From Chloroflexota bacterium (GTDB lineage: Bacteria; Chloroflexota; Dehalococcoidia; JACPEP01): a stretch of DNA of 64,000 nucleotides. The stretch is from contig JACPEP010000042.1 of the NCBI GenBank assembly GCA_016183425.1, forward strand, positions 62,001 to 126,000. The letters are read 5' to 3'. The notes below the pieces were generated by a model. That model was not told the DNA's origin, ran no database searches, and saw nothing but the letters and a program-made list of their open reading frames with translations. Below, one piece after another: positions 8,168-55,462 of the stretch (the first letter of the stretch is position 1; each line of letters begins with the position of its first letter). A program made the translations under genes and the position numbers.

Positions 8168-8295
8168 AGCTCCCTCCTTAGCCTGCACAAAGTGCTCTGC
8201 TGCCCAGGATGGTAACGGAAAGGAACCGAACCTGTCAATGACCTATTCTTCGTGCCACTTGCTTGCTTTTTTCTGACCTTTTCCTCAAAAACCCC

Positions 8296-8327
8296 TTGAC
8301 AAACGCTATGGGGGGGGGGGGTATAAT
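8296..8327 (+). promoter_or_regulatory. Promoter with 12-nt poly-G spacer (cassette 1)
   Basis: TTGACA (8296-8301) and TATAAT (8322-8327) are perfect consensus boxes separated by 20 bp, of which the last 12 (8310-8321) are an uninterrupted G run. The copy at 54630-54660 has 13 G and a 19-bp spacer. Both spacers exceed the optimal 17 bp, so slippage in the G tract could switch promoter strength, as in known phase-variable promoters of other bacteria. Confidence 0.75.
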
Positions 8328-8359
8328 GGGCCTATCACAACAGAGGAACCGAGGGGAAA

Positions 8360-8596
8360 TTGGCTAGACCCAGGCTGAAGAGCACGGAGAGAAGAGAGGC
8401 GCTAAGAAAGTCCCAAACGGTGCCTGTCCCACCCCTAAATGTGAGCTGTCTGGTTGTGGCGAAGGCGGACCTGGTGGCGGCGTTGCGGATTTATGTTCCC
8501 CAGTTGGCTGATATAATCTCTTTGGATGGCGAGCGTTTCCTGCTCAGCCTAGCGGAGGGCGAACCCAGGGGAGACGAGAACAGGAGGGCACCATGA
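8360..8596 (+). CDS. 78-aa cassette leader protein, unknown family (copy 1)
   Basis: 78 aa from a TTG, preceded by GAGGGGAAA. The N-terminus ARPRLKSTERR is basic; a central segment reads KADLVAALRIYVPQLADI; the tail is acidic/basic. A paralogue of exactly the same length occupies 54362-54598 at the start of cassette 2, with an identical first 11 residues after the start and clear similarity over PPLN...KADLVAAL.IYVP..AD. The stop overlaps the next start (ATGA) in both copies, implying translational coupling to the fibre gene. No signal peptide. It could be a chaperone or export/attachment factor for the downstream protein; that is inference from position only. Confidence 0.7.
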   Translation: MARPRLKSTERREALRKSQTVPVPPLNVSCLVVAKADLVAALRIYVPQLADIISLDGERFLLSLAEGEPRGDENRRAP

Positions 8597-9003
8597 CGGA
8601 CTGTATCTGTAACAATTTCCCTGCTGGACTAGGTAATGTTACTTTTGGCGCCTCTGTTGGCATCGGGATGAGTCCATCGCCAGGGCCAAGTGAAAGGTTG
8701 CAAGTTGCGGGAGGGAATATATTAGTAGGCCAGGGCTATGGATTTTACATTGGTGATGCCGGTCATGGAATTAGGACTACGCCTGGCAATCCCAACAGGG
8801 TGGACATTATAAACTACAACTGGGGTTCACCGGGAAATAGCTACTGGAGATTCGTTGATAGTGATGGAAATGTAAAGTCGTTATCGACACTTACGATGGG
8901 AGAACGGGCATTGGCACCACCAATCCCCAGGCCAAGCTCCATGTGGCGGGAGACGCTAAGCTGGATGGTGCCCTGGCTCAGATCTATGGTCGACCCAACG
9001 TAG
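8593..9003 (+). CDS. Tail-fibre-like protein, N-terminal part (frameshifted from the next gene)
   Basis: The first ~93 residues are a beta-structured fibre-like segment with the motif SVGIGMSPSPGPSERLQVAG, resembling the VGIGT..P...L.V repeats of phage tail fibres and bacterial S74-type surface proteins. After about 8865-8885 this frame turns into unrelated sequence, whereas the -1 frame continues the fibre pattern (TYDGRTGIGTTNP...LHVAGD). One missing base, for example in the GGAAAT run near 8866-8871, would explain it. So this and the following gene were or are one protein of about 680 aa. Confidence 0.6.
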   Translation: MTDCICNNFPAGLGNVTFGASVGIGMSPSPGPSERLQVAGGNILVGQGYGFYIGDAGHGIRTTPGNPNRVDIINYNWGSPGNSYWRFVDSDGNVKSLSTLTMGERALAPPIPRPSSMWRETLSWMVPWLRSMVDPT

Positions 9004-10640
9004 GTATCGCCTCAAACGACCCCAACGATGACCTGATCTTCAACTACAATGGAGCAGCGCTGTGGAAAAAAGGCGCCCAGGGCGGCGGCGCCCAGGTGGG
9101 TGGCGACCAACTGATGAAGCTGGATACCGATGGCAGCCTCTGGATGGGCAGCACGCCGCGCAAGGTCATTGATGATGGCCGGCTACGCCCTCTACGGTTA
9201 GACCCAGGGCTGACAGAATCTCCACGGAGGGACATAATGGCTACCCAGTGGACAAACCCCGTTGGGCCGGGCAGCCGAATTCTCGTCTTTGACGTTACCG
9301 AGCTGCGGAACGCTATTGATTGCAGCCGGTCAGCTTATGGTGCTCCACCCTATAGTTGGACTGACCCAACCCTTACCCCTGAGCAGACACGCATCAAAGC
9401 GGTGCATCTCACCGAGATGAGAACAGCCATTCAAGAGTTGTGGAATCAAAAGGCCATGGGAACGCTTCCAGCGTGGACAGGCGGCACGCCTACTACGGGA
9501 GGCCGGATATTAGCCAGCCACCTTACCGATCTGCGAACCTGGCTGAACCAGTACGAGACCAACACTACCGGCGCCGTCTACAACCCGCTTCGAGGGCTGC
9601 ACCTGCGAAACGCGGCAGATATGCGCCCGGCCGATGTGACGGCGGCCAGAACTTTTGCCCCCAAGATGGTGGTGGTTTTGAGCAGCGACGTTTTGCGTCC
9701 GGGGACGCTGAACTACTTAAAGGAACTTAAAGCAGGAGACCCCAGCGTTGAGATATTCGTCCGCTATTGGCCCACCACCTACCCACCCCTCACCTACACC
9801 ACCTTTGAGGGCTACAACTCATGGCAATCCATATATGGGGGTGGCGCTGCCGTCGAGAGGGCGGGCGATGTGGTGGCTCAGGATATTGTTGACCTTTACG
9901 ATTCCCTGCTCAGCAACGGGCTGCAAGTGACTCGTTTCTATCCTGGAAATGAGCCCGAGACAGAGTGGCTTAGCCCGCAGAACTCTGACTATACTTGGGG
10001 AGCCCATACGTGGGAAGACATCAAGTACTACTACCGGGACGTCTACTACTGGTTGCGTCAAAAGAAGGGAACTCGTCCCATCGAGCTCTACCCACCAGCG
10101 TTTGCCCAGTTCTCGTTTCTCGGGAAGTCGAATTATTGGCCGGATGGTACAACAAAACCAAAGACCCTCGACGACGGCACTGTTGGCGCAGATCACGTTC
10201 GCGACGTGATTGAGTACTACACTAACGATTCCCCTGACGTAGGCCGGGTGAACTGGCACAGCTACTTCTGGCCGGGCCGCCAGGCAGAACAGTCGGCTTA
10301 CAACTTTATGCCTCAATGGCTAAAGGATGACATAAACGCTGGGTACCCGGCGCGAATCACTGAGTTTGGGTGGCATCCCGATTGTTTTGACCCCCCACCT
10401 GGGTGTAACGCCAATCTGGATACCACTACCAGTCCCTGCGGTGGTACTCCCAAGTCGCTTACGTCTTGGGGTGATTATAATGATTTTGTGCGGAACCGCT
10501 CTGGCGCGGGAGGCGCCGCGGTATGGTTACTGTCTTCGCCAACTCAGGATTGGTGGCCGTGGTGCGCTTTTGTGAGTGATGGCACCGAAATGCGCCTCTG
10601 GTTCAGGCACTACGTCTGTTTCCTCAATGCCAACATTTGA
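8943..10640 (+). CDS. Fibre-repeat protein with GH-A-type glycosidase domain (continuation of the frameshifted gene)
   Basis: 565 aa from the GTG shown; homology starts upstream, near 8865. Residues 1-75 continue the fibre module. Residues 111-201 hold three 38-residue-period repeats (RILVFDVTELRNAI, RIKAVHLTEMRTAI, RILASHLTDLRTWL). Residues ~215-565 look like a (beta/alpha)8 glycoside hydrolase: candidate acid/base Glu337 in YPGNEPE and nucleophile Glu474 in ARITEFGW, the clan GH-A pattern. No signal peptide is seen. The next gene overlaps by 14 bp. Exact GH family and substrate are unknown. Confidence 0.65.
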   Translation: MAGDAKLDGALAQIYGRPNVGIASNDPNDDLIFNYNGAALWKKGAQGGGAQVGGDQLMKLDTDGSLWMGSTPRKVIDDGRLRPLRLDPGLTESPRRDIMATQWTNPVGPGSRILVFDVTELRNAIDCSRSAYGAPPYSWTDPTLTPEQTRIKAVHLTEMRTAIQELWNQKAMGTLPAWTGGTPTTGGRILASHLTDLRTWLNQYETNTTGAVYNPLRGLHLRNAADMRPADVTAARTFAPKMVVVLSSDVLRPGTLNYLKELKAGDPSVEIFVRYWPTTYPPLTYTTFEGYNSWQSIYGGGAAVERAGDVVAQDIVDLYDSLLSNGLQVTRFYPGNEPETEWLSPQNSDYTWGAHTWEDIKYYYRDVYYWLRQKKGTRPIELYPPAFAQFSFLGKSNYWPDGTTKPKTLDDGTVGADHVRDVIEYYTNDSPDVGRVNWHSYFWPGRQAEQSAYNFMPQWLKDDINAGYPARITEFGWHPDCFDPPPGCNANLDTTTSPCGGTPKSLTSWGDYNDFVRNRSGAGGAAVWLLSSPTQDWWPWCAFVSDGTEMRLWFRHYVCFLNANI

Positions 10641-11748
10641 GCAAGTCCTCAACGGCTACAGCAAAAGTGTGCATTGCATCTTGGCAGTTATGCTGCTAGT
10701 TCTGCTTCCCTTAACGGTAGCTTCGCCTTCGTTGTCCGCGGCACAGGACACACTGATAGTTAGCGGCTTTGTGTGGTACGACGACAACTTAAATGGTATT
10801 CCTGATGGGGGAGAAGAGCTTGCCGCCGCCACGGTGAAGGTTTTCTCAGGCACATATGGCAGCCAAGGGCGTCAGCCGCACGTGGTAACGACAACGAGTA
10901 GTGGCACTGATGGTAGATATACCGTCGCTTTTTCCAGACCCAGCGAAACCCCGATCTTCCTGGAGGCCAGGGCCATCAGGCCCGGTTTTCCTACCCGGTC
11001 CGAGCTAGACTACAACTATATCGTAACCACGCGTGCTCTGGATTTCTCCCGGACTGCTACGCTCAGCGTTAACCTTGGCCTCCGCCCCGGCTTTCCCTTC
11101 TATCCTCGTCCCCTCGATTATCCCATTCCCAACGGTCACTTCTTTACCCAGATGGTCTACCCCCAGAGGGGCCCGGGCTACTCCATCACCGATGACGCCG
11201 TCGCCCCCTTCTGGTCGGAGTTTCAGCACCTGGGAGAGGTTCCTTTGCTGGGCTACCCGGCATCCCGCCGCTTCCTCTGGGGCGGCTTCGTCTCTCAGGT
11301 GATGCAGAGGCAGGTCTTCCAGTGGCGGCCCGAGGCGGGCCAGGTCTACTTCGTCAACGTCTTCGATGAGCTATCCCGGGCGGGCAAAGACCCCTGGCTG
11401 CTGGCCTTCCGCCAGGTGCCTCCCCCCTTCGATACCTCCACTGATAAGGGGCTTCCCTGGGAGGAGGTGGTGGGGCGCCATCTGGCCTTATTAGATGCCG
11501 ACCCAGCCATCAAGGCCCGCTACTTCGCCGACCCCGATCCCATAGCCCACTTCGGCCTCCCCATGAGCTACGGGGACTTCGGCAACGTCTTCGTAATACG
11601 GGGCCAGCGGGCGGTGCTCCAGCACTGGAAGGTAGAGACTCCCTGGGCCCATGCGGGAGACGTGACCATCGCCAACGGGGGAGACATTGCCATCGAGGCG
11701 GGGCTGATCCCCCCTCCGGCCACCCTCCCCGAGCCGCCACCTGGCTAG
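10627..11748 (+). CDS. Secreted SdrD-B-like protein with Chloroflexota-type C-terminal surface domain
   Basis: 373 aa from the ATG at 10627, which overlaps the preceding stop; an alternative GTG at 10576 adds 17 residues. A signal peptide (CILAVMLLVLLPLTVASP) is followed by a prealbumin/SdrD B-type beta-sandwich (SGFVWYDDNLNGIPDGGEE...DGRYTVAFS). The C-terminal ~220 residues (from GHFFTQMVY through LGYPASRRF, MQRQVFQWRPE and ANGGDIAIEAGL) match a domain I recall from many Chloroflexota secreted proteins, of unknown function. The last 93 bp, beyond the stop, recur at the end of cassette 2, so this gene appears to be the conserved 3' component of the cassette. Confidence 0.72.
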   Translation: MPTFEQVLNGYSKSVHCILAVMLLVLLPLTVASPSLSAAQDTLIVSGFVWYDDNLNGIPDGGEELAAATVKVFSGTYGSQGRQPHVVTTTSSGTDGRYTVAFSRPSETPIFLEARAIRPGFPTRSELDYNYIVTTRALDFSRTATLSVNLGLRPGFPFYPRPLDYPIPNGHFFTQMVYPQRGPGYSITDDAVAPFWSEFQHLGEVPLLGYPASRRFLWGGFVSQVMQRQVFQWRPEAGQVYFVNVFDELSRAGKDPWLLAFRQVPPPFDTSTDKGLPWEEVVGRHLALLDADPAIKARYFADPDPIAHFGLPMSYGDFGNVFVIRGQRAVLQHWKVETPWAHAGDVTIANGGDIAIEAGLIPPPATLPEPPPG

Positions 11749-11773
11749 CCTGGGGTCTGTTCCCCTGCGGGGA

Positions 11774-13204: not shown

Positions 13205-13345
13205 CGTTTAGCAACGCTTTTTCGACCAACCCCCTGGCCCCCTTCCTGGCCAGGAAGGGGGTGGTGATGTATCTGGGGGACACCCCCAGACCCCCGTCAA
13301 GGGGAGCTTCGCCCCCTTGCAACCCTCATTATTAAACAGTCTCTT
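13205..13345 (-). repeat. Dispersed intergenic repeat, GGGGCGAAGC type (copy 1)
   Basis: On the minus strand: TGTTTAATAATGAGGG, then a GGGGGCGAAGCTCCCC hairpin, then GACGGGGGTCTGGGGGTGTC, then a 24-bp palindrome. The same series occurs at 40866-41015 and, degenerate, at 57075-57160; the 3' half is also at 40319-40420. All copies lie between genes. Confidence 0.7.
13238..13261. terminator. 24-bp perfect palindrome, possible terminator of the Kef gene
   Basis: CCCCCTTCCTGG (13238-13249) is followed directly by its exact reverse complement (13250-13261). It lies about 120 bp beyond the stop of the minus-strand antiporter gene. There is no clean U-run, so intrinsic termination is uncertain; it is also part of the dispersed repeat. 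Confidence 0.4.
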
Positions 13346-31742: not shown

Positions 31743-31781
31743 GGGGGCGGCCCCCCCGCCATAGGCAGGGGGGCCGCCCCC
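31743..31781 (-). terminator. GC-rich hairpin downstream of the cytochrome gene
   Basis: Perfect arms GGGGGCGGCCCCCC (31743-31756) and GGGGGGCCGCCCCC (31768-31781) with an 11-nt loop, 28 bp beyond the minus-strand cytochrome gene and before rfbD. No strong T-run follows, so efficiency is uncertain. Confidence 0.5.
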
Positions 31782-40865: not shown

Positions 40866-41015
40866 TGGAGATTGTTTAATAACGGGGGTTACAAGGGGCG
40901 AAGCCCCCTTTGACGGGGGTCTGGGGGTGTCCCCTAGATCCTCCGAATCTCCCCCTCTCCCGCTACCCAGCGGGAGAGGGGGACCAAGGGGGTGAGGGCT
41001 TAGAGCGCATTTTCA
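40866..41015 (+). repeat. Dispersed intergenic repeat with 14-bp hairpin
   Basis: TGTTTAATAACGGGGG, GGGGCGAAGCCCC, GACGGGGGTCTGGGGGTGTC, then a hairpin CCCCCTCTCCCGCT (40951-40964)/AGCGGGAGAGGGGG (40969-40982) with a 4-nt loop, and GTGAGGGCTTAGAGC. Reads like the inverted copy at 13205-13345. The rest of 40831-41138 holds a short GATTCT/AGAATC inverted repeat (about 41051-41086) and no gene. Confidence 0.7.
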
Positions 41016-49708: not shown

Positions 49709-50791
49709 ATGACCCTTATCCTGAACAACGAAGAGATCGAAAAAGTGCTTACCATGGACACCTGCCTTCAAGTGCTGGAGGATATGTATCGGGAGCTGGG
49801 CACCGATCGAGCCATTAACATCCCCCGCTCCGACCTCATCGTCCCTTCGGATCACCCCGATCGCGTCCACGCCTTCAAGACCATGAGCGGCGGCGTGCCC
49901 AAAATAGGGGTCACCGCTCTGCGCCTTAACTCCGACATCGTTAACTGGCCGGAGCGCCAGGGAACGCGGCGCCGAGAAAAGGTGCCCGCGGCACCAGGGG
50001 GCAAATGGCTGGGGCTCATCCTCCTCTTCAGCAACCAGAACGGCGAGCTTCTCTCCATCTTCCCCGATGGTATTGTGCAGCGAATGCGGGTGGGGGCCAC
50101 CAACGGCCTGGGGGCCAAGTACCTGGCCCGCAAGGATGCCGCCACCGTCGGCCTCCTGGGGTCAGGGTGGCAGGCGGGGACCCAGCTCATGGCCTTTTGC
50201 GGCGTGCGCCAGATTCGCCTCATCAAAGTCTTCAGCCCCAACCCCGACCACCGCCAGGCCTTCGCCCGGGAGATGAACGAAACATTGGGGGTGCCCGTCC
50301 GCCCCGTAGACAGCGCCGAGGAGGCGGTGAAGGATGTGGACATCCTGGCCGCCGCCACCAACGCCATCCGACCCGTGATAAGGCCGGAGTGGCTGGCTCC
50401 GGGAATCCATGTCAGCGCCATCAAACGGCAGGAGGTGGACGAGACTATCTTCCAGGGCTGCCACCCTATTTTCTTCCACACCACGGAGTATCTGGGCGAG
50501 GCGAACTATGCCCTCAAAGAGGTAGAACCTCGCATCCCCGAAATCCACGGGGGCTGGTGGCAGGAGCCGGAAAAGATAATGGCCCGGTGGGAGATTCACG
50601 ACCTCAAAGAGCTGGTCACGGGAAGGCTCCTCGGCCGCACCGATGACGGGCAGACCACCTGCTTTCTCAACAACATCGGGATGGGCGTCCAGTTCGCCGC
50701 TGTGGGAGCCAGGGTCTATCAACTGGCCCGAGAGAAGGGCCTGGGGCGGGAGATAGACACCGACTGGTTTCTGCAAACGGTACACCCCTAG
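49709..50791 (+). CDS. Ornithine cyclodeaminase/mu-crystallin family protein
   Basis: 360 aa, about 30 longer than usual because of an insertion near residues 70-95 (NWPERQGTRRREKVPAAPGGKW). NAD-binding Rossmann loop GLLGSGWQAGTQLMAF; RMRVGATNGLGAKYLA and FPDGIVQ are typical. Family members reduce or deaminate imino or amino acids. AGAGGAGG precedes the ATG. It is the last gene of the catabolic cluster; the truncated copy at 48918 shows that this gene's start was duplicated. Confidence 0.88.
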   Translation: MTLILNNEEIEKVLTMDTCLQVLEDMYRELGTDRAINIPRSDLIVPSDHPDRVHAFKTMSGGVPKIGVTALRLNSDIVNWPERQGTRRREKVPAAPGGKWLGLILLFSNQNGELLSIFPDGIVQRMRVGATNGLGAKYLARKDAATVGLLGSGWQAGTQLMAFCGVRQIRLIKVFSPNPDHRQAFAREMNETLGVPVRPVDSAEEAVKDVDILAAATNAIRPVIRPEWLAPGIHVSAIKRQEVDETIFQGCHPIFFHTTEYLGEANYALKEVEPRIPEIHGGWWQEPEKIMARWEIHDLKELVTGRLLGRTDDGQTTCFLNNIGMGVQFAAVGARVYQLAREKGLGREIDTDWFLQTVHP

Positions 50792-50796
50792 AAGCC

Positions 50797-50901
50797 ATGA
50801 TGGACCTAGCCCTCGTTCAGGAGGTCAACGACCTCTTTTCGCCCTTCTACCCCTATGTGGCCCGCCAGATCGCCCACGCCTACGGGCGAGAAGAGGGCCA
50901 G
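50797..50901 (+). pseudogene. Truncated 5' copy of the class I methyltransferase gene
   Basis: 35 codons encoding LVQEVNDLFSPFYPYVARQI and onward to REEGQ, matching the start of the intact methyltransferase at 54842 (about 85-90% DNA identity). The reading frame then enters inverted cassette-2 sequence at the shared CCAG (50898-50901) and is meaningless thereafter. Confidence 0.8.
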
Positions 50902-50990
50902 ACTAGCCAGGTGGTGGCTCGGGGAGGGTGGCCGGAGGGGGGATCAACCCCGCCTCGATGGCGATGTCTCCCCCGTTGGCGATGGTCACG
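50898..50990 (-). pseudogene. Relic of the SdrD-B/surface-domain gene (3' end only)
   Basis: 93 bp matching 11661-11753 in inverse orientation with about five mismatches; on the minus strand it reads VTIANGGDIAIEAGLIPPP and on to the stop. The upstream ~1 kb of the cassette-1 gene is absent. It begins 20 bp beyond the glycosidase stop. Confidence 0.8.
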
Positions 50991-51010: not shown

Positions 51011-51961
51011 TTACGGAGCTTTCAAAGCCGCCCGAACTTGCACGAAAGGTGCCATCTCCTGGAAACGGTAAAAGGCCTGGCGCGGATTCAAGTTCTCATC
51101 GCACAGACCAAAGTTTGCGAAGGGAACATCTGCGATGGTATTGTAAGCGGCCATCAGGATCCACGGACGATTAAAGCGGAGCTTCCCCAGAGCATCCTGA
51201 ATCCGTGCCGCCTGCGTCGCCTCGTCCATATCCTCTGGAACTTTCCAACTACCATACTCGGTGACCCAAATCAGCTTATTTTCATCACCGTTGGCCTCCA
51301 TGTTAGCCCGAAGATTGTCCAGACCGGTGGCATCCAAAGGATTGCTTTTGGGATCCGGGTAAGGGTGAACCGCCACGGCATCATAGTATGGCTGTCCCCC
51401 ATTAGCTCGAATATCGTCTAGGTAGCCCGTATCTGCCCCATCGAGGCCCCCAATGGATACCACGGCGTTCGGATTGCCCACCTTTACGCCTTGATAGCAG
51501 CGCTGGAGCCACTTGGTATACTCCGCTGGGTCTCGGGTATGCCATCCGTTTGCATTCTCCTCATTCCAATACTCCCAGTATTTGATCCGGCCCAGGAAGT
51601 GCGCCGCCACCTCAGCGCAAGCATCGATAAAAGCCTGAGCGTACTGTTCGTCGGGAGGCCACTGGTAATTATTGTCCGCCCCTGGTGGCAAGGCCCAGTT
51701 TGGTGTGGTAGCAATTTGCCCAATGACCTCAAAACCATGGACAATAGAGATATCCACCGCCTCGTCATAGGTGACACCAATATCTGGGTTTATGGCGCTC
51801 CAATTGTATTGCCCCACGCCGGTCCAGATGTGTACGAGGTCAATACCGTCTCTGGTACTGGTGCAGTGGGCCTCCTTCATCTTGTCCGCCTGAGCTTGAC
51901 GAGAAGCGCCTGGAGTAATAGGCTTCCCGTAGTCCATCCCGAAGATCAAATGGCCTGGCAC
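51011..51961 (-). CDS. GH-A-like glycoside hydrolase, GH39/GH5-like
   Basis: 316 aa (beta/alpha)8-barrel. Candidate acid/base Glu134 in KYWEYWNEEN and nucleophile Glu235 in WVTEYGSW are the clan GH-A pattern; YYDAVAVHPYPDP also fits. GTG start with AAAGGAGGGTGAA upstream. No signal peptide, although it lies between exported-protein genes. The cassette-1 protein has the corresponding domain fused to a fibre segment. Substrate unknown. Confidence 0.75.
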   Translation of the reverse strand: MPGHLIFGMDYGKPITPGASRQAQADKMKEAHCTSTRDGIDLVHIWTGVGQYNWSAINPDIGVTYDEAVDISIVHGFEVIGQIATTPNWALPPGADNNYQWPPDEQYAQAFIDACAEVAAHFLGRIKYWEYWNEENANGWHTRDPAEYTKWLQRCYQGVKVGNPNAVVSIGGLDGADTGYLDDIRANGGQPYYDAVAVHPYPDPKSNPLDATGLDNLRANMEANGDENKLIWVTEYGSWKVPEDMDEATQAARIQDALGKLRFNRPWILMAAYNTIADVPFANFGLCDENLNPRQAFYRFQEMAPFVQVRAALKAP

Positions 51962-51996: not shown

Positions 51997-52914
51997 CTAC
52001 GAAGGCAGAAACTCCAGCCGAAAGCGTGCACTAAGAACCTTTACCCCCGGGTAAAGATAATCACCTCTTCCCCAAAAAAAGATGAAATAGCGCCCGGGCA
52101 TGATCGTCCATTGATACTCAGTGGCCGGAGGATCCCAGTGTTTGGCTAGACAGGGGAAAAAAGCCGTAGCCTCGGGATAAACTCTCTCACAAGGGTCCGG
52201 GCCAACATAGTGATATTCATACTCTTGCCTGGGCAGGATATCTTCATAGTGTTTATAGAGTTGAATACGCCAAAGGTTAACGTCTTCCGGGGCCGAATAT
52301 TCTACTGCACCTGGTTCTCTTTTCTGGATCCGAACATTTTCCAAGGTTATCTTCAGAACTCGCCCCTCCCATTCGTCTGGAAAGTAAAGACGATAAAACA
52401 GACCAGTGACAGTGGCCAAAGGACTGCCTTGAAGTATTATCCAGTCTTCCTGACCGACCTCAAAGGTGCCGGCTTTGGGCAAAGGAAAGGGGGGGGTAGC
52501 CGTGGGAGGAACTGGCGTAAAGGTAGGAACAGGCGTGGCAGTAGGGGGTACAGGCGTTGGTTCTGGTGGCGCAGGGGTGGCGGTGGGCAAGGGCGTCGGT
52601 GTGTCCGTGGGCGTAGCAGCGAAGGTTGGCGTCGGTCTCGGGGTTTGGGTAAAGGTAGAGGTGGCAGTGGGAGTTGCGGTTGTGGTAGGAGTGGGGGTAG
52701 AGGTGGAAGTTGCTTTCGGGGTTGGGGTTAGGGTGGAAGCGGAAGTAGGAGACGCCGTGAACCTAGGAATAGGAGCAGGGGTTGTGGTGTGAGTGGCCGT
52801 AGGCAGTGGGGTACTGGTGACTACCACCGGCGTGGGAGTGTGAGCGGTGCTGCCAACACAACCCGCGGCCAGTAGGAACGCGAGAGCCATGAGCAACCAC
52901 TTCACCACCCACAC
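51997..52914 (-). CDS. Lipoprotein with long Thr/Pro-rich stalk
   Basis: 305 aa. Lipobox LLAAGC at residues 14-19 after a short signal peptide (VVKWLLMALAF) predicts lipidation at Cys19. Residues 20-150 are a low-complexity TPT/TPV stalk with a 4-10-residue period, probably spanning the cell envelope and likely glycosylated. Residues 150-305 form a globular C-terminal domain rich in aromatic residues (FYRLYFPDEWEGRVLKITLE; YIQWT-like), resembling pre-peptidase/carbohydrate-binding folds. The antisense strand is open but is only a shadow of the repeats. Confidence 0.75.
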   Translation of the reverse strand: MWVVKWLLMALAFLLAAGCVGSTAHTPTPVVVTSTPLPTATHTTTPAPIPRFTASPTSASTLTPTPKATSTSTPTPTTTATPTATSTFTQTPRPTPTFAATPTDTPTPLPTATPAPPEPTPVPPTATPVPTFTPVPPTATPPFPLPKAGTFEVGQEDWIILQGSPLATVTGLFYRLYFPDEWEGRVLKITLENVRIQKREPGAVEYSAPEDVNLWRIQLYKHYEDILPRQEYEYHYVGPDPCERVYPEATAFFPCLAKHWDPPATEYQWTIMPGRYFIFFWGRGDYLYPGVKVLSARFRLEFLPS

Positions 52915-52922
52915 CCCCCGGG

Positions 52923-54365
52923 CTAGGCCCAGGCTACTACCTTCGCCTGGCCGCTAGTTACCCAGTCATTACCAGCATCGTTTAAGCCAATCTTGTTTCG
53001 AACTACCACCTGCAAAGCAGTAGAGGTGATGGCCCGCACGTAAGCCCCGTACTCCGTCGGCTGTTCACCCCACAGGAAGGCCTCGAGAACCATGAAATGA
53101 GATGATGCCGACGACGCTCGGAAAAAGAGCTGAATGAGATTGGGGACAACGCCTAATGTGTGTGTCAGATTGTAAGTGCCTAACGCTGCTACATCAAACC
53201 AGCCGCTGTCCCAAACTTTGATGTTGTTGGCGGCGGTAAGGTTCCCAGGTATTGTCAGGTTGCCGCTGGCGTCCATGGACATCACCTCAGTATAGGCCGC
53301 TTGCTTGTTGAACACTTTGAACCTGGCATTGGCCCCCGAAAATACCACCTCGGCCTGGCCGGGCGCCGTAGCGTGGAACAGGCCATAGGCATTGAAATAG
53401 GCGCCGCCATCAATGCTATCCCCACCCAGAAGGGCCAGAGCCTGAGCGCCATCGGGGCGCTTCAGGTAAGTGCTGCCAACGATCAGATCGCCGTCGAGCC
53501 TCACGTCCCCTGCTACATGGAGCTTGGCCTGGGGATTGGTGATACCAACGCCGACGTAGCCGCCTGATGTAACTCTTAGAACTTCCCCAGAAATTCCATA
53601 AACTTCCAGTGGATTTGAAGGCTCACCCACACTTGAATCACCTACCCTTAGACCGGTATCGATGGAGAGTTTTCCAGTAGCGCCGCCCGAGCCGTAAATC
53701 CTCATGACCAAATTTGAATCGGAAACGATATCCAGTGAACCTGTCCCGATTCCTATGTCGGCAGTTAATCCGCCAGGGTGAGTTAATCGCAGTTGAGGAT
53801 AAGCCTTATTGATTGTCAGGGGTAATCCCGGCGACGTTGTTCCAATGCCGACCTTTCCGCCGATGTAGACATCCCCCGCGAAATACCCCGACCAGTTCAC
53901 GACGCCGCCGCTGGGGGCCTCGGCGTAGACGCCGTAATGCTCATCTCCTCCTATGGGGGCAGCGGCATAAAGGCTGTAGTTCTTGGCTCCTACTGCCCCA
54001 CTCCTGGCTCGTCCCCACACGCCGTAGGCCTGCATGCCGTTGATAGCTTCCCCATGAACACCATAAGCGCCGTAGTTGCCCTGGCTCACGCCCCGGACAC
54101 CAACAGTATTGAAGTAGTTTCCGCGGCCCTCGCCGTAGACCCCCACCGACCACTGGGTCGCCGAACCTGATGGAGTCTCCGCTACACCATAGACACCATA
54201 AGCGGTGGCAACACCGGAAGGCTGGCGATAGCCGTAGAGGGCCGCCTGGCCCGAGGGTGGCACCCCGCCCACAGACAGGTGGGCCGTAGACGCCGGCGGC
54301 GAGGTTCCCTGCTTGAACCAGCTTTGGCCGCTGACCACCAGGTCATCATCTATCAGGTACGTCAT
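52923..54365 (-). CDS. Tail-fibre-like repeat protein
   Basis: 480 aa. Residues 1-165 are rich in YGVYG/VGVYGE/AYGVWGRA repeats (beta-solenoid or trimeric-fibre type). Two VGIGTT..P/VGVGITNPQAKLHVAGD repeats at ~172 and ~275 are typical of phage tail-fibre and S74-protein shafts. The C-terminal ~95 residues (GWFDVAALGTYNLTHTLG to the end) look like a receptor-binding tip domain. No signal peptide. Its ATG overlaps the upstream 78-aa gene (ATGA). No other phage structural gene is nearby. The NPQAKLHVAGD motif is nearly identical in cassette 1. Confidence 0.7.
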   Translation of the reverse strand: MTYLIDDDLVVSGQSWFKQGTSPPASTAHLSVGGVPPSGQAALYGYRQPSGVATAYGVYGVAETPSGSATQWSVGVYGEGRGNYFNTVGVRGVSQGNYGAYGVHGEAINGMQAYGVWGRARSGAVGAKNYSLYAAAPIGGDEHYGVYAEAPSGGVVNWSGYFAGDVYIGGKVGIGTTSPGLPLTINKAYPQLRLTHPGGLTADIGIGTGSLDIVSDSNLVMRIYGSGGATGKLSIDTGLRVGDSSVGEPSNPLEVYGISGEVLRVTSGGYVGVGITNPQAKLHVAGDVRLDGDLIVGSTYLKRPDGAQALALLGGDSIDGGAYFNAYGLFHATAPGQAEVVFSGANARFKVFNKQAAYTEVMSMDASGNLTIPGNLTAANNIKVWDSGWFDVAALGTYNLTHTLGVVPNLIQLFFRASSASSHFMVLEAFLWGEQPTEYGAYVRAITSTALQVVVRNKIGLNDAGNDWVTSGQAKVVAWA

Positions 54366-54598
54366 GTTGCGCCTCCCTCTCGGTTCTCCTGGGGGCCGAA
54401 GACCAGGTAGAAGTGTTCTCCGTCCTCGAAGGCCTGCACATCGGCGACGTTGGGGACGTATATCTTTAGGGCCGCCACCAGATCCGCCTTGTTTATCACC
54501 ACCCCGGAGAGGTTGAGGGGTGGGATAGGGACTACCTGGCGCTCCGCCTCTCTTGTCGCCACTCTTCTCTCCGTGCTCTTCAGCCTGGGTCTAGCCAA
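54362..54598 (-). CDS. 78-aa cassette leader protein, unknown family (copy 2)
   Basis: 78 aa from a TTG at 54598 preceded by GAGGGGAAA; an ATG at 54631 overlaps the -10 box and cannot be used on the main transcript. Same length, same start type and same first 11 residues as the protein at 8360-8596; the rest shares PPLN, KADLVAAL.IYVP and AD positions. No membrane segment or recognised motif. Overlaps the fibre gene by 4 nt. Confidence 0.7.
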   Translation of the reverse strand: MARPRLKSTERRVATREAERQVVPIPPLNLSGVVINKADLVAALKIYVPNVADVQAFEDGEHFYLVFGPQENREGGAT

Positions 54599-54629
54599 TT
54601 TCCCCTCGGTTCCTCTGTTGTGATGGCCC

Positions 54630-54660
54630 ATTATACCCCCCCCCCCCCAGCATTTGTCAA
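54630..54660 (-). promoter_or_regulatory. Promoter with 13-nt poly-G spacer (cassette 2)
   Basis: On the minus strand TTGACA (54660-54655) and TATAAT (54635-54630) with a 19-bp spacer that ends in 13 G (54648-54636 as C on the plus strand). The 65-75 bp downstream of the -10 are almost identical to cassette 1 (one indel in the first ~75 bp), although the coding regions that follow have diverged. Confidence 0.75.
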
Positions 54661-54841
54661 GGGGTTTTGTCGAAGACTCGACTCTGGCGAGGGGAAAATG
54701 TCAGAAAAATACCAATGACTTATTCCCTTGAATTTATCACACCTCTGCCCCATCCTTCTGGACAAGGAAGGGGGGTGGTGGTATATTGGGGCCCACAGAT
54801 TAGTGACCTGGTCAATTTGAGAACGCTGGTGGCCCACACTG

Positions 54842-55462
54842 ATGGAAGCCATGACGGACCTTATTCAGGAGGTCAACGACCTCTTTTTGCCCTTCTACCC
54901 CTATGTCGCCCGCCAGATCGCCCACGCCTACGGGATGCAAGAGGGCCAGGCCCTGGAGGTAGGACCCTACGCCCCGGGCATATCCATCCAGCTTGCCTCT
55001 CTCTGCCCTGAGTTGGAGATAACGGTGGGGGACGACTTCCCGGGCATCCTGAGCTACTTCAGAGAGCAGATTGAAGCGGCCTCCCTTGCCCACCGCATCC
55101 AGGTGAGGGAGGTGGACAAGAGGAACCTCCCCTTCGGCGACGATACCCTTGATCTGGTTTACTTTCGAGGCGCCCTCTTCTTCTGGGAGGAGCAGGAGAG
55201 GATTCTCAAAGAGGCCTATCGGGTGCTGAAGAGGGGTGGGGTAGCGGTGATGGGGGGCGGCTTCGGCGCCGAGGCTCCCGACGCTCTTATCAACTCCCAC
55301 CTCCCCCGCTCCCGGGAACTAAACCGACGCCTCCAAAAAAAGGTGCTCTCCTTGGAGGAGTTGGAGGCTATTCTCTCTCGCGCTTCCCTTGCCCCCCACG
55401 CCTTCATCGACCACCGGCACGGCCTGTGGGTTGTGCTAAGAAAGCCGCCTACTCCGCGATGA
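54842..55462 (+). CDS. Class I SAM-dependent methyltransferase
   Basis: 206 aa. SAM motif I is unusual: EVGPYAPGISIQLA (in place of ExGxGxG), followed by the acidic EITVGDDFPG, motif NLPFGDDTLDLVYFRG and AYRVLKRGGVAVMGGG. It resembles small Methyltransf_11/25 enzymes. Met1 or Met4 (54851) could be the start; the truncated copy at 50797 is only compatible with the latter. Convergent with the next MFS gene (14-bp overlap). Substrate unknown. Confidence 0.85.
   Translation: MEAMTDLIQEVNDLFLPFYPYVARQIAHAYGMQEGQALEVGPYAPGISIQLASLCPELEITVGDDFPGILSYFREQIEAASLAHRIQVREVDKRNLPFGDDTLDLVYFRGALFFWEEQERILKEAYRVLKRGGVAVMGGGFGAEAPDALINSHLPRSRELNRRLQKKVLSLEELEAILSRASLAPHAFIDHRHGLWVVLRKPPTPR

Follow-up and report, generated by a model that had tools for sequence, protein, structure and literature searches.

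What is the function of a 78-residue protein of no recognised family that stands at the head of two gene cassettes in a Chloroflexota genome, each time directly before a fibre-type gene? A preliminary description of the 64,000-nucleotide stretch of DNA analysed here (the window) had reported that the two proteins share their length, a TTG start, an identical N-terminus and coupling to the fibre gene, and this picture holds up: copy 1 of the gene, which we call orf78 (8360–8596, plus strand, with GAGGGG ahead of the start), and copy 2 (54362–54598, minus strand) each encode 78 aa from equivalent TTG codons, the two genes do not differ by a single base over their first 12 codons (MARPRLKSTERR), and each overlaps the ATG of its fibre gene by 4 bases. 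Over 73 aligned columns the two proteins are 60% identical. An upstream ATG at 54631, taken from the list of open reading frames, was rejected as the start of copy 2; it is an unlikely start, sitting as it does on the promoter's −10 box, and its frame is not preserved in copy 1. The source genome (G000, 2.70 Mb, 52 contigs) has exactly two copies, both before a fibre gene.

The description had also let its reading depend on homologues outside this genome, and these exist in 10 other Chloroflexota genomes, together with one weak match (G542, E 4.2e-5) that is left out of all orf78 counts. A first contig scan for relatives returned no match. A profile built from both copies found relatives in 3 of 99 other sampled genomes, a profile of six members recovered the same 3 genomes among 392 others of the class, and the phylum sample added 7 of 300 other genomes. 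Among the relatives are the 'Chloroflexi bacterium' MAG records JACQOR010000026.1 and JAMCWG010000006.1. One genome of the phylum sample, G410, carries nine copies, and its class has relatives in 7 of 29 genomes, one of them weak. That orf78 regularly neighbours a fibre-type gene, as proposed from the two copies in the window, holds far outside the source genome too. The next gene is fibre-type, as called from repeat motifs, termini and synteny, in 16 of the 18 loci with readable downstream DNA, a count that omits three G410 C copies and two short G073 copies at contig ends and includes the G507 fibre, cut at a contig end, and the frame-broken fibre of cassette 1. The two exceptions are G020, where the neighbour is an RHS/YD-like protein as judged by eye, and locus L052 (G410:C39, near 99846), where a deletion has seemingly created an in-frame fusion of orf78 with the C-terminal portion of a glycosidase-like protein. 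Many of the fibres begin with MxDCxCNNFPAxLGNV and end in GCYYAD or a similar sequence, and those of G007, G500 and G507 carry by eye a Tat-like RxFLK signal. An extra small conserved gene (MPRTVTVDNVQVQR...) lies ahead of orf78 in loci L011 and L012 (G007) and L060 (G507), where the fibres have this Tat-like signal.

Two further, more informative features are both absent from the preliminary description: a promoter with a G-tract, and conserved ends around cargo that has probably been exchanged. In cassette 1 the promoter (8296–8327, plus strand) consists of TTGACA at 8296–8301, a 20-nt spacer with a run of 12 G at 8310–8321, and TATAAT at 8322–8327; in cassette 2 (54630–54660, minus strand) TTGACA at 54655–54660 and TATAAT at 54630–54635 enclose a 19-nt spacer with 13 G at 54636–54648. 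The shared layout is thus TTGACA-N6/8-G12/13-TATAAT, in which sigma-70-type consensus boxes, matching at 12/12 bases in both copies, flank the homopolymer, and the genome has exactly two such places. At 22 orf78 loci we searched 300 bp of upstream DNA for the best −35/−10 pair with no requirement on the spacer, leaving out G500, which has almost no upstream DNA. At least 11 of the 12 box bases were present at 15 of the 22 loci, and the spacer was G-rich, meaning G5 or GGGAGGG by a criterion set after the loci had been viewed, at 12 of these 15 (two in G000, three in G073, one in G549, three in G410 A and three in G410 B). Copies within one genome are not independent; by lineage, G-rich spacers occur in 5 of 12 orf78 lineages, and they reach other families of the phylum. 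When 252 other genes from the fetched loci were scanned in the same way, 11 had good promoters, none with a G-rich spacer (lineage-level p 7.7e-8); the control gene starts were set mechanically, and three start positions in the orf78 scan are a few bases off or lie in a fused frame. At ten of the 22 loci the scan gave no G-rich spacer, and in G410 three loci show a good promoter of 17-nt spacing that contains no G-run.

How specific is this arrangement? A G-run by itself is not evidence, as runs of G9 are not enriched in the window relative to shuffled sequence (9 overlapping matches, against a mean of 7.8); the weight lies in the position of the tract between the boxes and in its recurrence before the orf78 family. 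In the two genomes G000 and G073, 8 of 13 long G-tracts start within 8 nt after TTGACA, and all eight precede cassettes or exported proteins; the association has p ~1e-20 using the TTGACA rate of the window, a value that ignores the kinship of copies and a rate that is not specific to intergenic DNA. Six runs of at least G10 occur in G000. Three are inside open reading frames (one on the coding strand, two on the opposite strand), and the other three all lie at most 8 bases after TTGACA, namely those of the two cassettes and a third, TTGACA-N5-G14 (G000:C17:133753-133766, L015/L091), on the same contig 7.7 kb past the end of the window. The −10 box of this third promoter is poor, and the gene behind it encodes a secreted 1,855-aa protein with M23, LamG, N_BRCA1_IG and PPC domains. 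Among seven runs of at least G11 in G073, five lie at most 8 bases after TTGACA, before three orf78 copies, a secreted collagen-like protein (TTGACA-G13) and another exported protein (TTGACA-N5-G12), the last two at L109 and L118. A search of 393 genomes of the class for TTGACA-G8+-TATAAT gave 11 places in 8 genomes, and the reversed-pattern control gives none; five of these places are orf78 cassettes and four others precede lipoproteins or signal-peptide proteins as judged by eye. Two of these four, in G163 and G234, two species of one genus, are matching promoters (L027/L028) near ABC-type substrate-binding lipoproteins that differ as G8 versus G9. The phylum sample has 5 such places in 4 of 301 genomes, again with no control match. 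Several matches were set aside: those of G315, G044:C275 and G574 precede other genes and an operon that looks mraZ-like by eye, two in G007 and one at G500:C47 precede a tRNA or other genes, and the G19 run of G188, the run of G073 C106 and that at the contig end of G073 C65 are not promoter-like.

Does the G-tract act as a switch or as a fixed part of the promoter? Tract length differs between otherwise similar promoters, as in the G12 and G13 of the source genome, and the spacers of all G-tract promoters read span 14 to 21 nt, a spread that freely drifting tract lengths would be expected to produce but that is no proof of such drift. Alternatively, the tract could be a static element, such as a G-quadruplex, an A-form-like spacer or a regulator site, that tunes promoter strength and involves no switch by slippage. 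This would suit the G-rich spacers of G410, whose near-normal spacing of 14–18 nt goes with interrupted G-runs that are more stable because they are interrupted, and it would suit the six long-tract spacers before orf78, which all measure a similar 19–21 nt, none at the usual 17. Uninterrupted runs of 11–14 G, however, are a classical substrate for slippage, and the spread of spacer lengths over all such promoters also speaks against a fixed element, which we consider unlikely. From the anatomy of these promoters we infer that the G-tract probably switches the cassettes.

The genes behind the two promoters belong to different sets. In cassette 1, orf78 is followed by the fibre gene (8593–9236, plus strand), a gene for a 467-aa glycosidase-like protein (9237–10640, plus strand) with N-terminal WT(N/D)P..ELR..AI repeats and no Pfam match, and a gene for a 390-aa protein (10576–11748, plus strand) with a weak SdrD_B match below the cut-off and the C-terminus VTIANGGDIAIEAGL. 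The fibre frame is open to 9003, after which the repeats go on in another frame; as the reading frame changes twice (0 to 2 to 0), the gene has either decayed or been wrongly assembled, and with its fibre gene disrupted in this assembly, the whole of cassette 1 may be in decay. Cassette 2 comprises orf78, a 480-aa fibre protein (52923–54365), a Thr/Pro-rich, exported-looking protein of 305 aa (51997–52914) and a GH5-like protein of 316 aa (51011–51961), all on the minus strand. The cassette products are thus fibre-type, glycosidase-like and SdrD_B-like, and by eye the window's own fibres have no clear signal peptide. Cassette 1 is kin to cassettes of G410 and G549, and cassette 2 is kin gene by gene to a cassette of G435, weakly for the third gene; two old cassette types thus exist, both of them present in the source genome.

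The ends of the two cassettes nonetheless match. At the 5′ side, 8288–8481 (plus strand) aligns with 54471–54668 (minus strand) at 81.5% identity over 200 columns, with the leader and the first 12 codons near identical. At the 3′ side, a 93-bp block that occurs at these two places only is 96% identical between 11661–11753 (plus strand), the end of the SdrD_B-like gene, and 50898–50990 (minus strand), where it follows the GH5 gene as the orphaned end of a gene of cassette-1 type. Between these ends, comparison of the window with itself gives a single 62-bp match in the fibre repeats. In G410, B1 and B2 agree at 98% of positions over 963 bp from the −35 box and at 90% over a 3′ stretch of 681 bp, whereas immediately upstream they are unrelated and most of the middle cannot be aligned; in all five paralogue sets similarity sets in at the −35 box or within ~17 bp of it. 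Ordinary duplication, with constraint on the promoter and the gene end and no exchange of cargo, would leave matching ends too, as promoters and C-termini have functions that may keep them conserved, and it would accord with the fact that by eye no transposase or integrase of their own, terminal repeats or target duplication was seen in the cassettes read. It accounts poorly for the abrupt borders and divergent middle of B1 and B2, and for the orphan cassette-1-type gene end in a cassette whose own genes match the other type, so that duplication alone seems an improbable history, about as much so as a static tract. Because the genes of cassette 2 belong to the other type, type-II cargo would have replaced the interior of a type-I cassette, and type-II cargo inside type-I ends is the simplest history that the alignments suggest.

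Other repeats were noted in the same DNA. Cassette 2 is flanked by a 111-bp direct repeat (86%; 50791–50901 and 54845–54949) that belongs to a methyltransferase-like gene; the repeat abuts the 3′ side only, and the 5′ border is ~180 bp away. A 73-bp dispersed repeat lies at 13271–13343 and 40868–40939, and palindromic stretches are found at 13238–13261, 31743–31781 and 40950–40983.

Is orf78 itself a working protein? It might be a mere leader, translated for the sake of coupling to the fibre gene and without a role of its own, a view allowed by the lack of a known fold and by the many loci where orf78 overlaps the fibre start by four bases or comes close to doing so. The pattern of substitution makes this quite improbable. 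After the identical start, copies 1 and 2 differ by dS 1.84 and dN 0.47, dN/dS is ~0.16–0.43 in 7 of 8 other pairs (the eighth, G410 C1/C3, is too similar for a verdict), and a 45-residue core is conserved across the phylum. Nonsynonymous change well below synonymous change marks purifying selection on orf78 and argues that the protein is very probably made. That no known motif explains it, as the preliminary description had put it, agrees with our searches, which gave no usable match to Pfam, NCBIfam, PHROGs or PDB sequences, in Foldseek against PDB and viral models, or with VIA-align. A hit to HrpB1_HrpK (E 0.065, in 1 of 17 members only) was not taken as meaningful, and the structure model is moderate (pLDDT 73) and says nothing on function. 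orf78 is a new protein family with neither a profile nor a fold match, and the part in assembly, export or anchoring that the preliminary description suggested from its place next to the fibre gene is conjectural.

The fibres share VGIGTTxPxxKLHV repeats of the kind found in tail-fibre-type proteins, and that of cassette 2 weakly matches the PHROG tail fibre phrog_9942 (1.2e-5), yet to read the cassettes as tail-fibre modules of a phage or prophage, with orf78 as a tail-fibre assembly protein, is very improbable, since searches of phage records, plasmid records and IMG/VR gave no orf78 relatives, the remaining cassette proteins have no PHROG match, and the cassettes are chromosomal with no phage context seen, have glycosidase-like and SdrD_B-like partners, in many cases give the fibre an N-terminus of its own, and place orf78 in front.

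By layout, the cassette promoters resemble spacer-tract contingency promoters. In the meningococcal porA promoter, tracts of 11, 10 and 9 G give falling levels of PorA (PMC3639595); as there, a poly-G of similar length sits in the −35/−10 spacer, in the cassettes ahead of a gene for a putative surface protein. Unlike porA, the cassettes belong to an unrelated phylum and concern an unrelated gene, they hold several genes, their spacers are 19–21 nt long, and their switching is read from sequence. The Neisseria gonorrhoeae fetA promoter likewise has a homopolymer within its spacer, a poly-C that changes promoter strength (PMC5320596), whereas the fetA tract is of the opposite strand base and serves an outer-membrane receptor of a host-restricted pathogen. 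No report of phase variation or contingency loci in Chloroflexota was found among the titles and abstract openings covered, which included few subscription journals. Promoter switching by simple repeats is known mostly from host-associated pathogens.

How might these features work together? We regard it as modestly probable that orf78 heads conserved cassettes for extracellular fibres and glycosidases, which are probably phase-variable through the G-tract and mosaic through recombination at their ends. Slipped-strand mispairing in the tract would alter the distance between the −35 and −10 boxes, and this distance would set transcription of the cassette stochastically, following the logic of porA. 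Recombination between the conserved ends would exchange the cargo, and the cassettes would yield an extracellular fibre together with partners active on carbohydrates. The weakest step, and a doubtful one, casts orf78 as a small partner protein that would assist the fibre within the cytoplasm, in its folding, its trimerisation or its hand-over to export; translational coupling would then make orf78 in step with the fibre.

In conclusion, orf78 is a small, rare protein family that marks cassettes of this kind. More broadly, and tentatively enough that we lean slightly against it, the promoters in these genomes could point to a Chloroflexota phasome, in which G-tract promoters would switch exported proteins stochastically and the orf78 cassettes would form a repertoire akin to antigenic variation, with fibre and glycosidase cargo swapped between constant ends, in free-living, uncultured bacteria. 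Such a phasome, if true, would perhaps help its bearers to evade phages or grazers or to cope with shifts in substrate. With poly-G spacers that recur in environmental MAGs ahead of genes for exported fibres and hydrolases, the range of contingency loci would grow to include lineages that are free-living and uncultured.
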